From a virus, in the IMG/VR virus record IMGVR_UViG_3300008267_000240, positions 1-33,807 of that record: a stretch of 33,807 bases of DNA; one strand, given 5' to 3'. Each line of letters opens with the position of its first letter. Position 1 is the stretch's first letter. Made by a program: the position numbers and the translations under genes. This document shows positions 10,645 to 33,807 of this stretch, one piece after another. The notes below the pieces were generated by a model. That model searched no databases and was not told where the DNA came from. It saw only the letters and a program-made list of their open reading frames with translations.

Positions 10645-13600
10645 AGATAAAGTTGAAGACCTCGGTGATGCAGTAGAAGATGCCGTTGAATGGGTCGGAG
10701 ATGAAATTGTCGATCCGGTGGTTGACTTTGCCGGGGACATGATTGATGCGGCTCTCGATAACCCGATAAAAACAATCGCCCAGATTGCGGCCATAGCAAC
10801 CCAACAGTATTGGCTACTTCCTTATATTGAAGGAGCGGATGTCGCCGCTAAAGGTGGTGATATTGAAGATGTGGCTAAGGCGGTCGTAATTGCAGTTGTT
10901 GCCCAAGAAGCCGGGGCACGGGTTGGCCAAGCGGTTGCAGCCAATACAACAAATGCTGCCACGGCGATGAATTATGGCGTAAATGCAGGATCACAACAGG
11001 CCGCTATGCTTGCCGCCCAAGAAGCCGGTATGCAGACCGCCTCACAGATTGCGGGAAATATCGCTGGTTCAGCGGCCGGTTCTGCCGCATCCGCAATTGT
11101 TACCGGACAAGACCCTGTTAAGGCAATGATCACAGGTGGGGTGAATGCCGCCGTTCCTGCCGTATTGGGACAGGTTGATGGATTCCGGGACTTATCTCCA
11201 ACCACCCAAAAGATTATTGAAACCGCAGTTAAAACTCAACTTGCCGGGGGTGATGTTGGGGCGGCGGTTATTCGTTCAGCAATCGTAAGTTCCCAACTCG
11301 CAACGGACACAATTAAGAAACTAGATCCAAATGGAACTCTTTCAAAGAGTCAACAAGCTATTCTTGCCGATGTTGTGACCGCAGCTTCCGTGGCGGCATT
11401 TACAGGCGGAAATGTTAATGCGGCCATTCAAAAAGAACTATTCAACGCAGGTTCCAAAGCTCTTGGCGATGCGGCAACGGCTAAAGTTAAAGAATTAACA
11501 ACCAAGACCCAACAAACATCTGAACGGATGGCTTCGGTTGCAACGCAGGTTTCAGAAAATGAATCCAAACAAAATGAAGTAATTAATCAGTACAACATAG
11601 TCAGGGATCAATTAAGCGTAAGACTAGAAAAACAAAATGAATTAAAAAAGGTAATGGAGAGCAATAGCGAAACAGCAAATTTTTATGTCAAAGAATATAA
11701 CTCTGGAAATCTTCAAAAAGATGTTGTTGAAAGTTGGATAGCAACAGCTAATCGGTCAATTGAAGAATACAACTCTTATGTCACTTCACTTAATAGCGAC
11801 TATGAAAATGTATTTAAACCTGACTTGGATAAGTACGAATCTGAACTTAACGCTTTAAAAATACCTCATGATCAATTAGTTGCTGACTTTCAAAAAGAAC
11901 AGGCAAGCATAAAAGAATTAGCATTAGAACTAGGCAAAGAAGTTGAAGTCTTAGAAAACGGCGTTAAAAAGTCGTTTGTTGGGGTTATGGATACAAACTT
12001 CAATCCTGATGAATACCGCAAGATTAATGGATTGGATGCAAGTGTTGATCCCTACAATCATTGGCTTTCAACTGGTCAGTACGAAAAACTTCCAACAAAT
12101 TACAAGGCGGCAGAATCTTCCGTAGTGGAGCAACAAGCCCGCTTATTGTCTGAGGCATTAGAGGCTCGAGACTTAAAACTTACAAACCTCACAAAAGAAG
12201 ATCGGGAACGCTTTTACGAAACCATTGAAAACCAGTTTGGTAGCGATTTCAATGCGTTAAAGAACGCCACCATTGCTGACTTCGATGTTGATGATATTTT
12301 GCAGACCTCCTCATCCTCAACAGTCAATGAGGATTTGGTCAAAGATACCTACAACGCCGACAACCGGCCATCCTCAACGACTTACACGCCGCCAGAAGGA
12401 TATAAGTTAGCCACCTCAGAAGAGATTTTTGGCAACCAAGCCGTTCTAATGCCAACTTCTAACGGGGCATATGCATGGCTATCCAACGCCTCCGCAGATC
12501 AAAAAACCGATGGATACTTTTGGGACCCTGTGACCGGAGACAAAAAACTCCGGATTACGATTGAGGGTGTAGGTGACACCCGTGGGGTTGGAAACACGCT
12601 TGATGAGATGCGCGACCAAGACCCTATGGGTTGGTTTGAGATGTACCAAGACTTTGCCTCTGATGACAAGAAGAAAATTGACTTGGGAGACACGGTCTAT
12701 AACTACATCAAGGAAGCCTACGATAACTTCCAAAATAAACTGACTCCGGCAGAAAAAGAGGCTCTTGCAAGGTTTACTGCATCCGCAAGGCCAAATAGCA
12801 CCACCCTTGATTTAATGTCAGGAATTGTCAATGGTATCAAAGGCATTACCGATGCCTTCGGTGCAGACAACTCAGTATCAAAGGCTTTGGGAACCGCCCG
12901 TGGTTACATCCAATCGCTCTATAGTGCTGAGGCGTTAAATGACAAAGCCTTACAAGCCAAAATTCTTAATGATGCAAAAGACAAAGGTGTTTTGGATCAA
13001 GTAATTGCCGGTGTTGAAGCGTTAGTTGCCTATCCAGGTGTAATCGTAGAGGCGGCGGGAACTATCGTTCCAAATGTGGCCGCAGCCATGGCTACATCGG
13101 TTTTAGGCGCTCCTATGGTCGTAGCTCGCATCGCTCAGTACGGGACAGGAGCGGTGTCTGGAGCGGGAATTATCAAGGGCACTATTTACGATGAAACCAA
13201 GAAAGCGTTAATTGCCTCGGGCGTTGATCCCGGTACGGCAGAAATTAAGGCTCAGCAGGCTCAGGCTTATAACGGCAAAAATCTTGATTCCATCATTGCC
13301 GGCGCAATATTGGGAACCGCGGCCGCTATGGGACCAGCGGAAAAAATCCTTACAAAAGAAATAGCATCAAATATTGCTGAGGGTGTTGCCGCCAAGAATG
13401 TTGCGGGGCAGTTTGTTGTAGGCGGATTGAAAGAAGGCATTCCTGAGGCAGCTCAGGGCGGCCAAGAAAAGTTAGCGGAAAACATCGCTCTTCAGCGTGA
13501 AGGTTTTGCAGTCCCGACATGGCGCGGTGTTGTTGCATCCGGTACTTTAGAGGGGGTAGCGGGTGGCCCTATCGGAGGTGCCGCAGATGTTGCCTCAAAT

Positions 13601-25990: not shown

Positions 25991-26221
25991 ATGGATCTTG
26001 ATTACCACGAAATGGATATGCAACTTGCTTCAGCGAATAGTCGAATTAAGGAACTAGAGGCATTGTTGGATACAAAAAGAAAACAAATAATTGAGTGGCA
26101 GTCATTGGCTCAAAAACAAAGAAACAATGAAAGTTTGTGGAAACCACCCATGACTGCATTTGGCCATGAGATGCAATCCGCCCTTCGAGATCTTCATGCC
26201 ACTCTTTTGGACAACAAATGA
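25991..26221 (+). CDS. Short coiled-coil protein
   Basis: A 76-residue protein from ATG 25991: MDLDYHEMDMQLASANSRIK, followed by ELEALLDTKRKQIIEWQSLA and the end EMQSALRDLHATLLDNK. GGAG lies seven bases before the ATG. A longer in-frame opening overlaps the previous gene and lacks a ribosome site. A heptad pattern over residues about 10-45 indicates a coiled coil. It shares ATGA with the methyltransferase start, so the two are translationally coupled. Function unknown. Confidence 0.65.
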   Translation: MDLDYHEMDMQLASANSRIKELEALLDTKRKQIIEWQSLAQKQRNNESLWKPPMTAFGHEMQSALRDLHATLLDNK

Positions 26222-27888
26222 AATATTTATCGGTCTGTAGTGGCATCGAAGCGGCCACATCGGCGTGGCACCACATGGGTTGGGAGCCGGTTGCTTTCTC
26301 AGAGATTGATGCCTTCCCATCTGCGGTGCTCAAGCACCATTACCCAACAGTCCCTAACCTTGGGGATATGTCCAAATTTAAGGAGTGGAATCTTGGAACA
26401 ATTGACCTTCTTGTCGGAGGAACCCCCTGTCAGTCCTTCTCTGTCGCCGGACTCAGAAAAGGATTGGATGACCCGCGTGGCAACCTCATGCTCACCTTTG
26501 GTGCCATTGCTCGCCACCTCTCTCCCCGTTGGCTGGTTTGGGAGAATGTCCCTGGGGTCTTGTCATCTAACGGAGGAAAAGATTTTGGTGCCTTCCTCGG
26601 AATGTTGGGAGAACTCGGGTATGGGTTTGCCTACAGAGTTCTTGACGCTCAGTACTTTGGAGTGGCACAAAGACGCCGCCGTGTGTTCGTTGTCGGATGT
26701 CTTGGAAACTGGCGAGATGCCGCAGCGGTTCTTTTTGAGCTCGCAAGCCTGTCGGGGAATCCTCCGCCGAGCAGAGAAGCGAGGAAAGTCACTCCCACCC
26801 TCTCTGCATCAGGCACTGGCGTCAGTCGTGTCGGGTTCAACTGCGAAGATGAATGGTTTATCCCACAAACCGCCGGAACCCTTGACCGGCAATGCGGAGG
26901 GGGAAAGTTAGATCATCAGTACGCCCAAAGTGGCCAACTTTTGCCAACTTGGTGGGATGGCGCTGAGAGCGCGGCAAGCCTGACAACTCGATGTCATGAC
27001 CAATTTATGCCAGATAAAGGTAACTTTGCGGCCGTGGTTCAGCCGATTCCATTCAGGAAGTCTAAGCGAGCTCAAAGCGTAGATGATGATGAGTCTTGGG
27101 TGGATGGGGAGGTGGCTAATACCATCAATCTATTCGATCAGGGCGACACTAGAACCACCCACGCGGTAGTGCAGACAATCCCAATCCATGACAAGGCTAC
27201 CCGACACCAAGGCGGGGGCGACACCCGGAACGGGGATGGAGCCGGCAACGGTTTGGGGGTAGGTAAACCAGGCGACCCGTGCCCAACCCTGACCGCGGGC
27301 GATAAACACGCCATCGCCTTCACCTCAGAACAAACACCAAAGGCGAGCTCTGACCTTGCCCACACCCTTACGAACACCACCTTTAAACACAATCAGATGG
27401 TCGCGTTTTCCTCAAATATGAGCGTTCCGGACTGTCAGATTGATGTCTCCCCAACGCTGAAGCTGGGGGGCCAAGGGGGCGGTAACCCGCCGGCGATAGC
27501 CTTTAATGGGGACCAGTCAGAGAAGACCCGCAGCATGGGAGAGTCCGTAGAACACACCCCTACCCTGAGGGCTGATGGGCCGTGCCATGTTGCCGCCCCA
27601 TCGCTAACCGCCACCAATAATCCGAGCCGTAGCCCTCAGTCTTCAGAAGTTACCCAACAAGTCGGGGCGGTTTACCAGGCATCGATGGCCGTGAGGCGGC
27701 TCACCCCCCGCGAATGTGAGCGGCTCCAAGGCTTTCCGGATGACCATACCCTGATTCCTTGGCGGGGCAAGGAGGCTGCCCTATGCCCGGATGGCCCCAG
27801 GTACAAGGCTTTGGGCAACTCAATGGCGGTCCCGGTCATGCGGTGGATCGGGGAGCGGATAAGGATGGTCAATGAACTACCGAAATAA
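26218..27888 (+). CDS. DNA (cytosine-5) methyltransferase with a repeat-rich insert
   Basis: A 556-residue m5C methyltransferase. The catalytic domain is complete: motif I SVCSGIEAA (5-13), GGTPCQSFSVAG with C71, ENV (109-111), QRRRR (151-155), then C-terminal RRLTPRECERLQGF (493-506) and YKALGNSMAVP (529-539). Between QRRRR and motif IX lies a stretch of more than 300 residues, far longer than in a typical single-specificity enzyme, built from loosely repeated units such as CPTLTAGDKHAIAF, HTLTNTTFKHNQMVAF and SPTLKLGGQGG. These may be serial target-recognition modules. It probably methylates phage DNA against host restriction. There is no cognate restriction enzyme in view. It overlaps the YbcO-like gene by 17 bases. 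Confidence 0.92.
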   Translation: MKYLSVCSGIEAATSAWHHMGWEPVAFSEIDAFPSAVLKHHYPTVPNLGDMSKFKEWNLGTIDLLVGGTPCQSFSVAGLRKGLDDPRGNLMLTFGAIARHLSPRWLVWENVPGVLSSNGGKDFGAFLGMLGELGYGFAYRVLDAQYFGVAQRRRRVFVVGCLGNWRDAAAVLFELASLSGNPPPSREARKVTPTLSASGTGVSRVGFNCEDEWFIPQTAGTLDRQCGGGKLDHQYAQSGQLLPTWWDGAESAASLTTRCHDQFMPDKGNFAAVVQPIPFRKSKRAQSVDDDESWVDGEVANTINLFDQGDTRTTHAVVQTIPIHDKATRHQGGGDTRNGDGAGNGLGVGKPGDPCPTLTAGDKHAIAFTSEQTPKASSDLAHTLTNTTFKHNQMVAFSSNMSVPDCQIDVSPTLKLGGQGGGNPPAIAFNGDQSEKTRSMGESVEHTPTLRADGPCHVAAPSLTATNNPSRSPQSSEVTQQVGAVYQASMAVRRLTPRECERLQGFPDDHTLIPWRGKEAALCPDGPRYKALGNSMAVPVMRWIGERIRMVNELPK

Positions 27889-30816: not shown

Positions 30817-31392
30817 ATGCCTGAAACTCGAACAAAATCTAAACAAAAAGAAACCAATTTGGAATCCAATTTGGTTTTGACCCAAGCGGAGCCTAGTGCT
30901 GCCAAGCCGAAACATCCGGGTGGTCGCCCGACAAAATACGATGAAGCCTTGGCCGCAGACCTTTGCACCCGAATAGCAAATGGAGAGGCTCTAAGACAGA
31001 TATGCCAAGAAGAGGGTATGCCGGTACAGAGTACTGTCTACCTTTGGCTGTCCCGATTTCCAGAGTTTTCGGATATGTACACGAAGGCAAGGGAGGATCA
31101 GGCCGATACCCTTGCTGATGAGATTCATGCCATAGCGGATCAGATGCCTATGGAGAAGACAGACAAGGAGGGCAATACCTCTTTTGATTCTGCCTACATC
31201 AACTGGATGCGCCTGAGGATAGATGCCCGGAAGTGGACTGCATCGAAGCTCAAGCCCAGGAAATACGGCGACCGGATGGAGCTGGCCGGGGATAAGGACA
31301 ACCCGTTGAAGGTAGAGGCTTCCATAGAGGCCAAGGGATTGTTTGACAGCTTGCTGCAAAACCTAGAGCTGAAAAAACAGGCGGCCCAATGA
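30817..31392 (+). CDS. terS: Terminase small subunit
   Basis: A 191-residue protein. After a basic Lys/Gln/Pro-rich start comes PGGRPTKYDEALAADLCTRI (34-53), an HTH with ICQEEGMPVQSTVYLWLSRF (62-81), and a helical oligomerisation region with FSDMYTKAREDQADTLADEI (84-103) and SAYINWMRLRIDARKWTASK (125-144), then LKPRKYGDR. This order, ending in the R-x-R-x-D-x-R-K-W-x-x-x-K-L-x-P-x-x-Y-G-D pattern, is typical of Sf6-type small terminases, which recognise the packaging site and feed DNA to TerL. Two CCAATTTGG units lie in its first 20 codons. It shares ATGA with the next small gene. Confidence 0.88.
   Translation: MPETRTKSKQKETNLESNLVLTQAEPSAAKPKHPGGRPTKYDEALAADLCTRIANGEALRQICQEEGMPVQSTVYLWLSRFPEFSDMYTKAREDQADTLADEIHAIADQMPMEKTDKEGNTSFDSAYINWMRLRIDARKWTASKLKPRKYGDRMELAGDKDNPLKVEASIEAKGLFDSLLQNLELKKQAAQ
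30854..30874. repeat. Two CCAATTTGG units in the terS start region
   Basis: CCAATTTGG occurs at 30854-30862 and 30866-30874 with a 12-base period. Together they form a near-palindrome. The same element, in reverse complement and at the same period, is found in the initiator gene (22897-22917), and a single copy lies in a palindrome at 22710-22726. Confidence 0.7.
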
Positions 31393-31568
31393 CCGACCAA
31401 GAGATCGAGGATGCGATCCATGAGATCCACCCCGACATCAAGGTTGGGGGGTTTGAGCTCCTAGTTGGTAGGCTCATCGCCATGAGGCAGAGGGAGAAGT
31501 GCGCTGAGGTGGCAGAGATTCCCCATATGACACCCGTCGACATAGCCCGCGTGATCAGGAATGGATGA
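31389..31568 (+). CDS. Small protein between the terminase subunits
   Basis: A 59-residue protein from ATG 31389 (ATGA overlap with terS): MTDQEIEDAIHEIHPDIKVG, then GFELLVGRLIAMRQREKCAE and VAEIPHMTPVDIARVIRNG. It is acidic at the start and helical, and its stop lies inside the first codons of TerL (31566-31568), so all three are translated together. A small helical protein tucked between TerS and TerL might bridge them, but no family is recognised. Confidence 0.65.
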   Translation: MTDQEIEDAIHEIHPDIKVGGFELLVGRLIAMRQREKCAEVAEIPHMTPVDIARVIRNG

Positions 31569-33807
31569 AGTTCTTGAGATCCTTAAAGACCCGGACACTC
31601 AGGCCAAATTCTCTCAACTCAAGCCTGAGGATCAGGTCGCCTGGGCTTGGAGGGCTAACTGGGTATCTAAGGCGCATAGGCACCAGGTTATCCCGGCTGG
31701 GGATTGGTGGACGATATGGCTTATGCTCGCCGGCCGCGGTGCCGGCAAGACCAGGACGGCTGCGGAGCAAGTGGGGTGGTGGGCATGGCAGGAGGAAGGC
31801 ACTCGCTGGCTGGTGGGCGCACCAACCTCCTCCGATGTCAGAGCAACTTGTTTTGAAGGGGACTCAGGGCTTTTATCAGTTATACCCAGTTCACTTGTGG
31901 CAGATTACAACCGCGCCTTCCATGAGCTTAAATTGATTAACGGCTCCCTGATCAAAGGCATCCCAGCTTCGGAGCCAGAGCGGTTCCGGGGGCCACAGTT
32001 CCACGGGGCATGGCTGGATGAGTTGGCCGCTTGGGACTACCTCGATGAGGCCTGGGATCAGATCATGTTCGGGGTGCGACTAGGCAAGAAGACCCGGATT
32101 ATCTGTACGACAACCCCAAAGCCTAAAGACCTGATCGTGGATCTAGTAGGGCGGGAGGGCAATGATGTGGTGCTGACTACCGCCTCAACCTATGACAATC
32201 TCGCCAATCTGGCTCCCTCCTTCCAAAAGCAGATCCTCCAATATGAGGGAACGAAGCTGGGAAGGCAGGAGATCTACGCTGAGATCATCGACCCGGAGGA
32301 GTCCGGGATCGTCAAGCGGGAGATGTTCAAGCTCTGGCCGGCTCAGAAAGCCTTTCCCAAATTTGAGTACATCGTTCAGTCCTATGACTGCGCCTATACG
32401 GAAAAGACCATCAACGACCCAACCGCCTGCATTACTTGGGGGGTGTTCAAGCCCGTGGATGGCCCGATGTCGGTCATGGTGATTGACTGCTGGCAAGACC
32501 GCCTGCAATACCCCGACCTGCGGCCAAAGGTCATTGAGGAGTACGACACCATCTTCGGTGAGGGCAGGGAAAAGAAGCGGGTTGACCTGATCTTGGTTGA
32601 GGACAAGTCGGCTGGCATTAGCCTGATCCAGGACTTGCAGCGGGCCCACCTGCCGGTCAGGGCATATAACCCAGGGAATGCGGACAAGGTTCAGCGCCTC
32701 AATATCGTGTCCAACATCATTGCTCGAGGGAGGGTGTGGATACCGGAGAGCACGGTCAAGGAAGGCTATGTCCGGGATTGGGCTGAGCCTTTTGTCTCAC
32801 AGATATGCTCCTTCCCTGAGTCCACTCATGATGACTTTGTGGATGCTTATCACTTTATCGGTGCATCAATGAAGCCTGATCTCAAACTCAAAGCCTGGTA
32901 CGAAAGCCAAATGGCAGGCGGCGGTATTGCTAAGAAGACAGCCAAGGCTGCCACGAAGGCAAGCGAGAAGGCGGTCAGCGCGGCGCGGGACATGGCCAAG
33001 AAGTCTAAGTACAAGACTCTTGAGCCGCAGGTCAGAGAGCGCGAGGGTCAATACGGGGTTCAACGGCTAGAGCGAATCTTTGATGAAGTGCCAAATATCT
33101 ATCGGCAATATGATGATGAGGCTTTGCTCAGCGCCCTTAGAGGGGATAACGCCCAAACCCTAATGATCATGCGGCCGGGAGACTTTGAGAATTTTGCCTC
33201 CCCGCTCAATGTGTCGGGTTCGGACATGAGCAAGGGAAACAAGTCCCTCGATGAATATGTCAGAGAGTTAGGGGTCATTGCCCGCGATAAGGGGTTTGAG
33301 GATGTGCCATTCCTTGAGCTAGGCAAACCAAAAGGCTCCGCATACCTAAACATCCCAGGCCATGAAGGTCGCCATCGTATGAGGGCGTTAGAAGAGTTAG
33401 GTGATGAATCAACCTTGGTTCGCACTCTGCCAAGAGGGTCTGTGCGCGAGGCTTTGCCACGCCGCTCCCGGCAGGAGTACTTGGAAGCCTTGTCGCGTGA
33501 GCATGGCAACCCCCTGCTTGTGAACCCAGAGGATATTACAAGCGACATCATTGACCTGCGCCGTGCCCTACCCGAGCAATTTGCTGAGGGCGGCGAAGTT
33601 GCCCCTGAGGTATGGGGTGGCGGTACGGGCATCCCTTATGCCAAAGGCGGCGCAATTGATAAGAACCTCAAAGATTGGTACGCCGCTTCCGGTGGTGCTG
33701 CCTCCTATACGCAGAGCCAACAAGCCCAGGCGAAAAGATCATCCGATATACAGTCGTTTAAGGAGGGCAAGATTGGAGCGGATGAGCTGGTCAAGTACTA
33801 CCCAGGG
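31561..33807 (+). CDS. terL: Terminase large subunit with a long C-terminal extension (runs off the window)
   Basis: From ATG 31561 the frame is open for 749 codons up to the window edge. The packaging ATPase shows Walker A LAGRGAGKTR (56-65), Walker B AWLDEL with D153/E154 and the coupling motif TTTPKP (183-188). The RNase H-like nuclease has D276 (SYDCAY), E347/D348 (LVEDKSAG) and D425/D428 (HDDFVDAYHF). The core ends near 440. Beyond it the same frame continues through a Lys/Ala-rich helix (457-485), a domain with MRPGDFENFASPLNVSGSD, then IPGHEGRHRMRALEELGDE (598-616), a ParB-like motif, and Gly-rich sequence with FAEGGEVAPE. Most TerL proteins end after the nuclease, so this is a fusion or a polyvalent protein. 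LKAWYES (443-449) and LKDWYAAS (703-710) look like an internal repeat. The core call is secure. The extension's role is not known. Confidence 0.85.
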   Translation, partial: MDEVLEILKDPDTQAKFSQLKPEDQVAWAWRANWVSKAHRHQVIPAGDWWTIWLMLAGRGAGKTRTAAEQVGWWAWQEEGTRWLVGAPTSSDVRATCFEGDSGLLSVIPSSLVADYNRAFHELKLINGSLIKGIPASEPERFRGPQFHGAWLDELAAWDYLDEAWDQIMFGVRLGKKTRIICTTTPKPKDLIVDLVGREGNDVVLTTASTYDNLANLAPSFQKQILQYEGTKLGRQEIYAEIIDPEESGIVKREMFKLWPAQKAFPKFEYIVQSYDCAYTEKTINDPTACITWGVFKPVDGPMSVMVIDCWQDRLQYPDLRPKVIEEYDTIFGEGREKKRVDLILVEDKSAGISLIQDLQRAHLPVRAYNPGNADKVQRLNIVSNIIARGRVWIPESTVKEGYVRDWAEPFVSQICSFPESTHDDFVDAYHFIGASMKPDLKLKAWYESQMAGGGIAKKTAKAATKASEKAVSAARDMAKKSKYKTLEPQVREREGQYGVQRLERIFDEVPNIYRQYDDEALLSALRGDNAQTLMIMRPGDFENFASPLNVSGSDMSKGNKSLDEYVRELGVIARDKGFEDVPFLELGKPKGSAYLNIPGHEGRHRMRALEELGDESTLVRTLPRGSVREALPRRSRQEYLEALSREHGNPLLVNPEDITSDIIDLRRALPEQFAEGGEVAPEVWGGGTGIPYAKGGAIDKNLKDWYAASGGAASYTQSQQAQAKRSSDIQSFKEGKIGADELVKYYPG

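Follow-up and report, generated by a model that had tools for sequence, protein, structure and literature searches.

Does this phage encode a packaging motor whose large terminase subunit (TerL) runs, without a stop, into a second protein of a very different kind? The window analysed here is an entire IMG/VR virus record of 33,807 bp, and its ORF listing and translation contain a stop-free frame of 749 codons from an ATG at 31561 to the end of the window at 33807. A sequence-only reading had pointed to this frame and to the strings GHEGRHRMRAL, MRPGDFENFASPL and LKxWYxxS, and all of these were found in the translation as described. It had also proposed that a finished TerL carries a polyvalent-type tail. 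Comparison with other records suggests that this phage very probably has no such fusion. In all likelihood, the fused frame results from a deletion of 171 bases that is private to this assembled record, arising most probably as an assembly or consensus error.

The terminase frame and its neighbors

The features needed to follow the argument are these:
30817–31392, plus strand: terminase small subunit (TerS) gene, 191 aa (ORF; PHROG phrog_1482, E 1.1e-42)
31561–32847, plus strand: TerL, truncated in the window record to 429 codons, without its last 44 residues and stop (Terminase_6N/6C matches; sibling records L004–L006)
32846–32847: record-specific junction at which 171 sibling bases are absent (sibling alignments; 2-bp GC repeat)
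32869–33807, plus strand: 5′ part of a separate downstream gene (MKPDLKLKAWYESQM...), which the end of the contig cuts short (full product in the sibling, 2310 aa)

The first part of the long frame is an ordinary terminase of the Terminase_6 kind, with both domains matching above the Pfam cut-offs. Terminase_6N (PF03237) covers residues 55–256 (E 1.1e-20), providing the ATPase domain, and Terminase_6C (PF17289) covers residues 337–429 (E 6.5e-07; profile positions 51–147 of 155), providing the RNase H-like nuclease. The order TerS, TerL, large protein, portal is seen in the window and sibling together and, apart from a small CDS after TerL, in the annotated phage record MW202545.1. What sets this TerL apart is that its last 44 residues and stop are missing, and this is so in the window record only. 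As for the remainder of the frame, a Pfam scan of the tail alone gave no match, tblastn against annotated phages gave no relative at E 0.01, and PHROG returned two weak matches (E 0.081 and 0.5).

The 171 bases missing at the junction

A search with the tail protein retrieved three further IMG/VR records, of which one (L004) comes from a record of 56,983 bp and two (L005 and L006) begin at window position 31022. All three match the window perfectly (100%) as far as 32846 and then from 32845 through to 33807, with 171 extra bases in between. Past 32846 their TerL runs on as CTQALRFLRDAGW...NPYAS followed by a stop. A fourth record, L007, also has the 171 bases, at an identity of 97.4–97.7% upstream and 98.6% downstream. 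What the window lacks is the last base of an Ala codon, then 44 codons (CTQALRFLRDAGWLEIDPPPQEDYDEEDYIDSGAWKKRENPYAS) with the TGA stop after them, and finally 35 of the 57 spacer bases. Since 171 bases equal 57 codons, their loss keeps the frame while removing the stop, and the fused frame reads ...FVDAYHFIGASMKPD... across the junction. The GC repeat of 2 bp at the joint allows three equivalent placements of the deletion.

Several parts of the earlier proposal give way at this point. TerL had been thought complete by about residue 440; in fact, it is truncated after residue 429, and the 44 conserved residues that should follow (CTQALRFLRDAGW...NPYAS), a segment found in relatives past the Terminase_6C match, are gone from the window record. 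Nor does the terminase "continue" into the tail, since at 32846/32847 its end, its stop and 35 spacer bases are absent relative to siblings that are otherwise 100% identical. A missing stop or frame error near 32880–33000 had been named as what would undo the fusion, and the stop is indeed missing, just upstream of that interval. Finally, the LKxWYxxS pair had been placed inside the fused protein. The first copy is residues 7–13 of the siblings' separate downstream gene, and the second lies further along the same gene product.

In the 56,983-bp sibling, the downstream gene begins with an ATG at 5971 of L004 and ends with a stop codon at 12901–12903, giving a product of 2310 aa with the N-terminus MKPDLKLKAWYESQM. 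It is followed by a portal gene (850 aa; phrog_1216, E 3.8e-19), so that the large protein is encoded between TerL and portal. In the phage itself, then, TerL would have 473 residues, ending ...KKRENPYAS. Its stop would be followed by a gap of 57 bases, by a separate polyvalent-type gene of 2310 aa with an N-terminal ParB/sulfiredoxin-like domain, and then by the portal gene.

One could of course turn the comparison around and suppose that the window is right and the siblings wrong. No point in favor of this was found, and it is hardly credible when the three sibling records are in mutual agreement, L007 sides with them at a lower identity, and endings and stops of this kind are present in 77 of 80 TerL relatives (the best of 430). 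In addition, an ORF of 371 aa elsewhere in the record is intact in the sibling and split in the window.

The 56,983-bp sibling (start of L153, end of L155) has its first 62 bases a second time, beginning 194 bases short of its other end. Beyond that second copy the sequence is similar, not identical, to that near the start; there is thus no clean circular overlap.

Relatives keep the two genes apart

A tally of the best 80 of 430 TerL relatives shows how this gene normally ends. A stop is reached in 77 of the 80, none is fused, and none runs into a polyvalent frame. In 70 of those 77, the stop falls 40–44 codons past the end of the match, and in the other 7, it comes after an intein and the same tail. 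The remaining 3 of the 80 (L061, L105 and L112) end with their contig, the conserved segment having already begun in each. The segment lost from the window is begun or complete in all 80.

A frame test over 130 loci gave the same picture. There were 91 frames with a TerL match and 65 with the ParB-like domain (counted at E < 1e-10), and none with both; the window frame, as positive control, rang in both tests. TerL and the ParB-like domain occur in separate frames at 26 of the 130 loci (25 contigs, L008 being the same as L084). The test took in loci L004–L060, L077, L081–L083 and L084–L152, leaving out L001–L003, L061–L076, L078–L080 and later loci. Among annotated phage records, MW202545.1 comes closest (69.9% identity over query positions 4–429), with a TerL of 494 aa that ends NPYAA at its own stop. 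Its gene order is similar to that of the window and sibling, but a small CDS comes after TerL, followed by a large protein with a GP88 match and then a head-to-tail connecting protein.

Both parts in one frame were thus found in no second independent genome, whether among the best 80 of 430 relatives, across the 130 loci or in a search of viral_contigs for the junction. On the strength of the tally and the frame test, a real TerL–tail fusion was rejected. The sequence-only reading had favored a packaging motor with an in-frame polyvalent tail, and its parts prove to be separate genes in relatives. Its alternative, a separate protein joined to TerL, was right about the separate gene, while the joining itself is seen in the window record only.

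It is conceivable that the fusion nonetheless works and that the ParB-like, polyvalent extension serves the motor as cargo or as a further nuclease. As this idea would require, no stop interrupts the frame at the junction and the deletion preserves the frame. Against it stand the 0 of 80 relatives (best of 430) with a fusion, the lack of any dual frame in 130 loci, the loss of the C-terminal TerL segment, and identical siblings with separate genes, so that a functional fusion is almost certainly not what the record represents.

Other differences private to the record

Over 33.8 kb, the window differs from the 56,983-bp sibling at three places structurally and has no true point difference. The two further differences, both from the sibling comparison, are as follows:
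1577–1578: second record-specific junction, with 85 sibling bases absent; it splits the ORF that has 371 aa in the sibling
2667–2749: third record-specific difference, a perfect 41-bp tandem in two copies, against one in the sibling

The bases on either side of the 1577/1578 joint share no repeat. The sole BLAST mismatch, at 2709, lies inside the duplicated stretch, where two alignment pieces overlap, and was taken as an edge effect and not as a point difference.

Each private junction was sought in viral_contigs with the window's own record left out, and none was found: the 35-mer spanning 32846/32847, the junction at 1577/1578 and that at 2667–2749 all gave 0 matches. By comparison, the intact left edge of the TerL gap occurs in 18 stretches of viral_contigs, and that of the 85-base gap (coding IINGDMRIDQ) occurs in 37. 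The search omits the window's own record and possibly near ones too, and a second copy from the same sample could thereby be hidden. Three private junctions absent elsewhere in IMG/VR make assembly error the likeliest explanation. Three structural changes, two of them gene-breaking, unaccompanied by any substitution, look like errors of assembly, and the 171-base deletion would then be technical in origin, as judged from these sequence comparisons, and not a property of a real molecule.

Terminase inteins and a possible homing scar

Certain features of the TerL junction could indicate a real cut-and-rejoin event. The deletion is a multiple of three, the joint has a 2-bp repeat, and only 1–3 bases separate its left end from the site where some relatives carry an intein. 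The inteins themselves, of 298–304 aa, sit exactly at VDA/C in 8 of 80 TerL relatives (best of 430), and the two that were scanned matched Intein_splicing as well as an intein C-terminal model. A different frame within the intein holds an ORF with an HNH_3 domain (E 2.4e-14 and 3.8e-18 in the two tested). The comparison covered seven distinct inteins, the remaining intein loci being contigs already among them. Six are full-length and have the long ORF in the same relative frame; the seventh, a mini-intein of 125 aa at the same site, is without it. Their positions are these:
L102 1902–2813: TerL intein hiding an HNH ORF
L109 5288–6199: TerL intein hiding an HNH ORF
L132 5288–6181: TerL intein hiding an HNH ORF
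L138 5279–6172: TerL intein hiding an HNH ORF
L161 1801–2709: TerL intein hiding an HNH ORF
L163 2501–3316: TerL intein hiding an HNH ORF
L162 717–1091: mini-intein without the HNH ORF

Of the 32 substitutions that separate L102 from L109 in the HNH region, 21 are synonymous in the HNH frame, where 21% would be expected, and 5 in the intein frame, where the expectation is 24%. Across the six environmental inteins, the HNH frame is the more conserved in 15 of 15 pairs, at 36–94% against 22–88% for the intein frame. The HNH protein also finds matches, in the same relative frame, inside the annotated terL of Tetrasphaera phage TJE1 (L201), Acinetobacter phage Highwayman (L202) and Rhodobacteraceae phage LS06-2018-MD07 (L203). 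The TerL proteins of all three have Intein_splicing matches, above the Pfam cut-off in one (Highwayman), and that of LS06-2018-MD07 has Hint_2 above its own cut-off.

In the literature, PMC11855218 describes hidden out-of-frame HNH genes for an insertion in a phage methylase, which the authors were unable to assign to the inteins. In a dCTP deaminase intein of a phage, described in PMC6293099, a single protein has both a HintN and an HNH_3 domain. Among the papers listed in the searches, none was found to describe an intein whose HNH gene is out of frame, which does not prove that there is none.

In Caulobacter phage GB2A (L003 2445–5248), the annotation divides the terminase large subunit into two CDSs, separated by a "DNA methyltransferase" CDS, so that its terL may be an interrupted one. 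A split PHROG match hinted at an insertion in the DNA methylase of the window itself (26218–27888). This idea was dropped, as Pfam gave no match at E 0.01 for the alternate frame at 26240–26908.

The left end of the window's 171-base gap falls 1–3 bp before the TerL intein insertion site, maybe by chance or maybe as a homing scar. The 171-base deletion might belong to actual DNA of the sample, from a phage genome that is defective or in the minority. In its homing form, the HNH endonuclease of a TerL intein may cut an intein-free gene at VDA/C, with the ends rejoined on the 2-bp repeat, and the product would be a truncated TerL run into the next gene. The left breakpoint within 1–3 bp of the exact intein site of 8 of 80 relatives (best of 430), the HNH ORF in another frame of those inteins, and the GC repeat at the junction all fit. 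Even so, the junction is in no other contig of viral_contigs, the TerL of intein-bearing relatives is only 77–81% identical to that of the window, and the same record has two more structural differences away from the intein site and no true point difference. Moreover, with the lost segment begun or complete in all 80 relatives (best of 430), a genome without it would probably package badly. No intein-bearing allele close to the window was present among the 9 intein relatives or the best 80 of 430 TerL relatives. A real molecule of some kind is therefore unlikely. Much less likely still is the full scar scenario, in which the out-of-frame HNH of a co-infecting phage cut TerL at VDA/C and rejoining on the 2-bp repeat deleted the stop and fused TerL to its neighbor.

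The separate downstream protein

With an assembly or consensus error as the preferred account of the junction, the tail can be considered as what it appears to be, the beginning of a 2310-aa protein. No Pfam family matches this protein at E 0.1, residues 1580–1744 match phrog_7348 (annotated endolysin; E 8.9e-25), and one domain was assigned by fold. A search for LPD1 (PF18796) in the sibling gave no match, its controls being silent too. The domain assigned by fold lies within the window:
33004–33582, plus strand: ParB/sulfiredoxin-like domain with GHEGRHRMRAL (53-member alignment; AlphaFold2 model; fold matches)

The alignment drew on 54 distinct stretches spanning at least 95 profile positions, of which 52 were used together with the window; L005 (identical to the window) and L007 (a close sibling) were left out. 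GHEGRHR, P58 and P102 are invariant in all 53 members. By sequence, ParB_N matched 3 of the 53 (best E 0.0038) and PFIN 7 of the 53 (best E 0.03), the window member matching neither, and the domain profile found no ParB among PDB sequences. The two matches that it did give there, at E 0.00031 to a designed TIM barrel and at E 0.27 to a lipoprotein carrier, were taken as chance.

The AlphaFold2 model of the domain (pLDDT 83.5, pTM 0.74) fits the alpha+beta ParB/sulfiredoxin (Srx) fold, although with modest scores; its leading structural matches belong for the most part to this superfamily, as do many of the viral ones. Foldseek against PDB ranked ParB-like PadC, ParB, Noc and sulfiredoxin first, at E-values that are weak (6.1e-03 at best). 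VIA-align to sulfiredoxin 6ky4 gave Z 6.2 (rmsd 3.7 over 82 residues), the best ParB and Noc chains gave 5.0–5.6 and no chain reached 8, a range in which the program warns that Z may mean merely a common arrangement. Among viral models (BFVD), the best match has no functional name (2.1e-06), followed by models named ParB/Sulfiredoxin (3.3e-05 and 2.0e-04). Thus, the domain resembles this superfamily in its leading structural matches, but departs from it in the weak E-values, the lack of any Z at 8 and the presence of ParB_N in just 3 of 53 members. On the model, the GHEGRHR domain is likely ParB/Srx, in keeping with what the sequence-only reading had made of GHEGRHRMRAL.

Passages of Iyer et al. 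2017 (PMC5512222) describe phage polyvalent proteins that carry ParB/Srx domains and are encoded beside virion genes, and suggest an NTP-regulated DNase role for those domains. The protein here is likewise very large, encoded beside virion genes and equipped with a ParB/sulfiredoxin-like domain; it differs from the polyvalent proteins in those passages in having no Pfam family at E 0.1 and one domain assigned by fold. By analogy only, a DNase role of this kind could be carried over to the window's domain, which may act as a nucleotide-binding or nicking module. Presumably, the protein would be expressed late and on its own; like polyvalent proteins, for which this has been proposed, it may then be packaged or injected.

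Implications

Had the fusion been allowed to stand, databases would have gained a new kind of packaging motor, and finding the missing 171 bases prevents that. The case also illustrates how a single contig with a gap that preserves the frame can look like a domain fusion while nothing within the record gives it away. As for the biology of these phages, the TerL inteins with a second, out-of-frame HNH gene, seen in environmental contigs and in three annotated phages, may matter more than the fusion.
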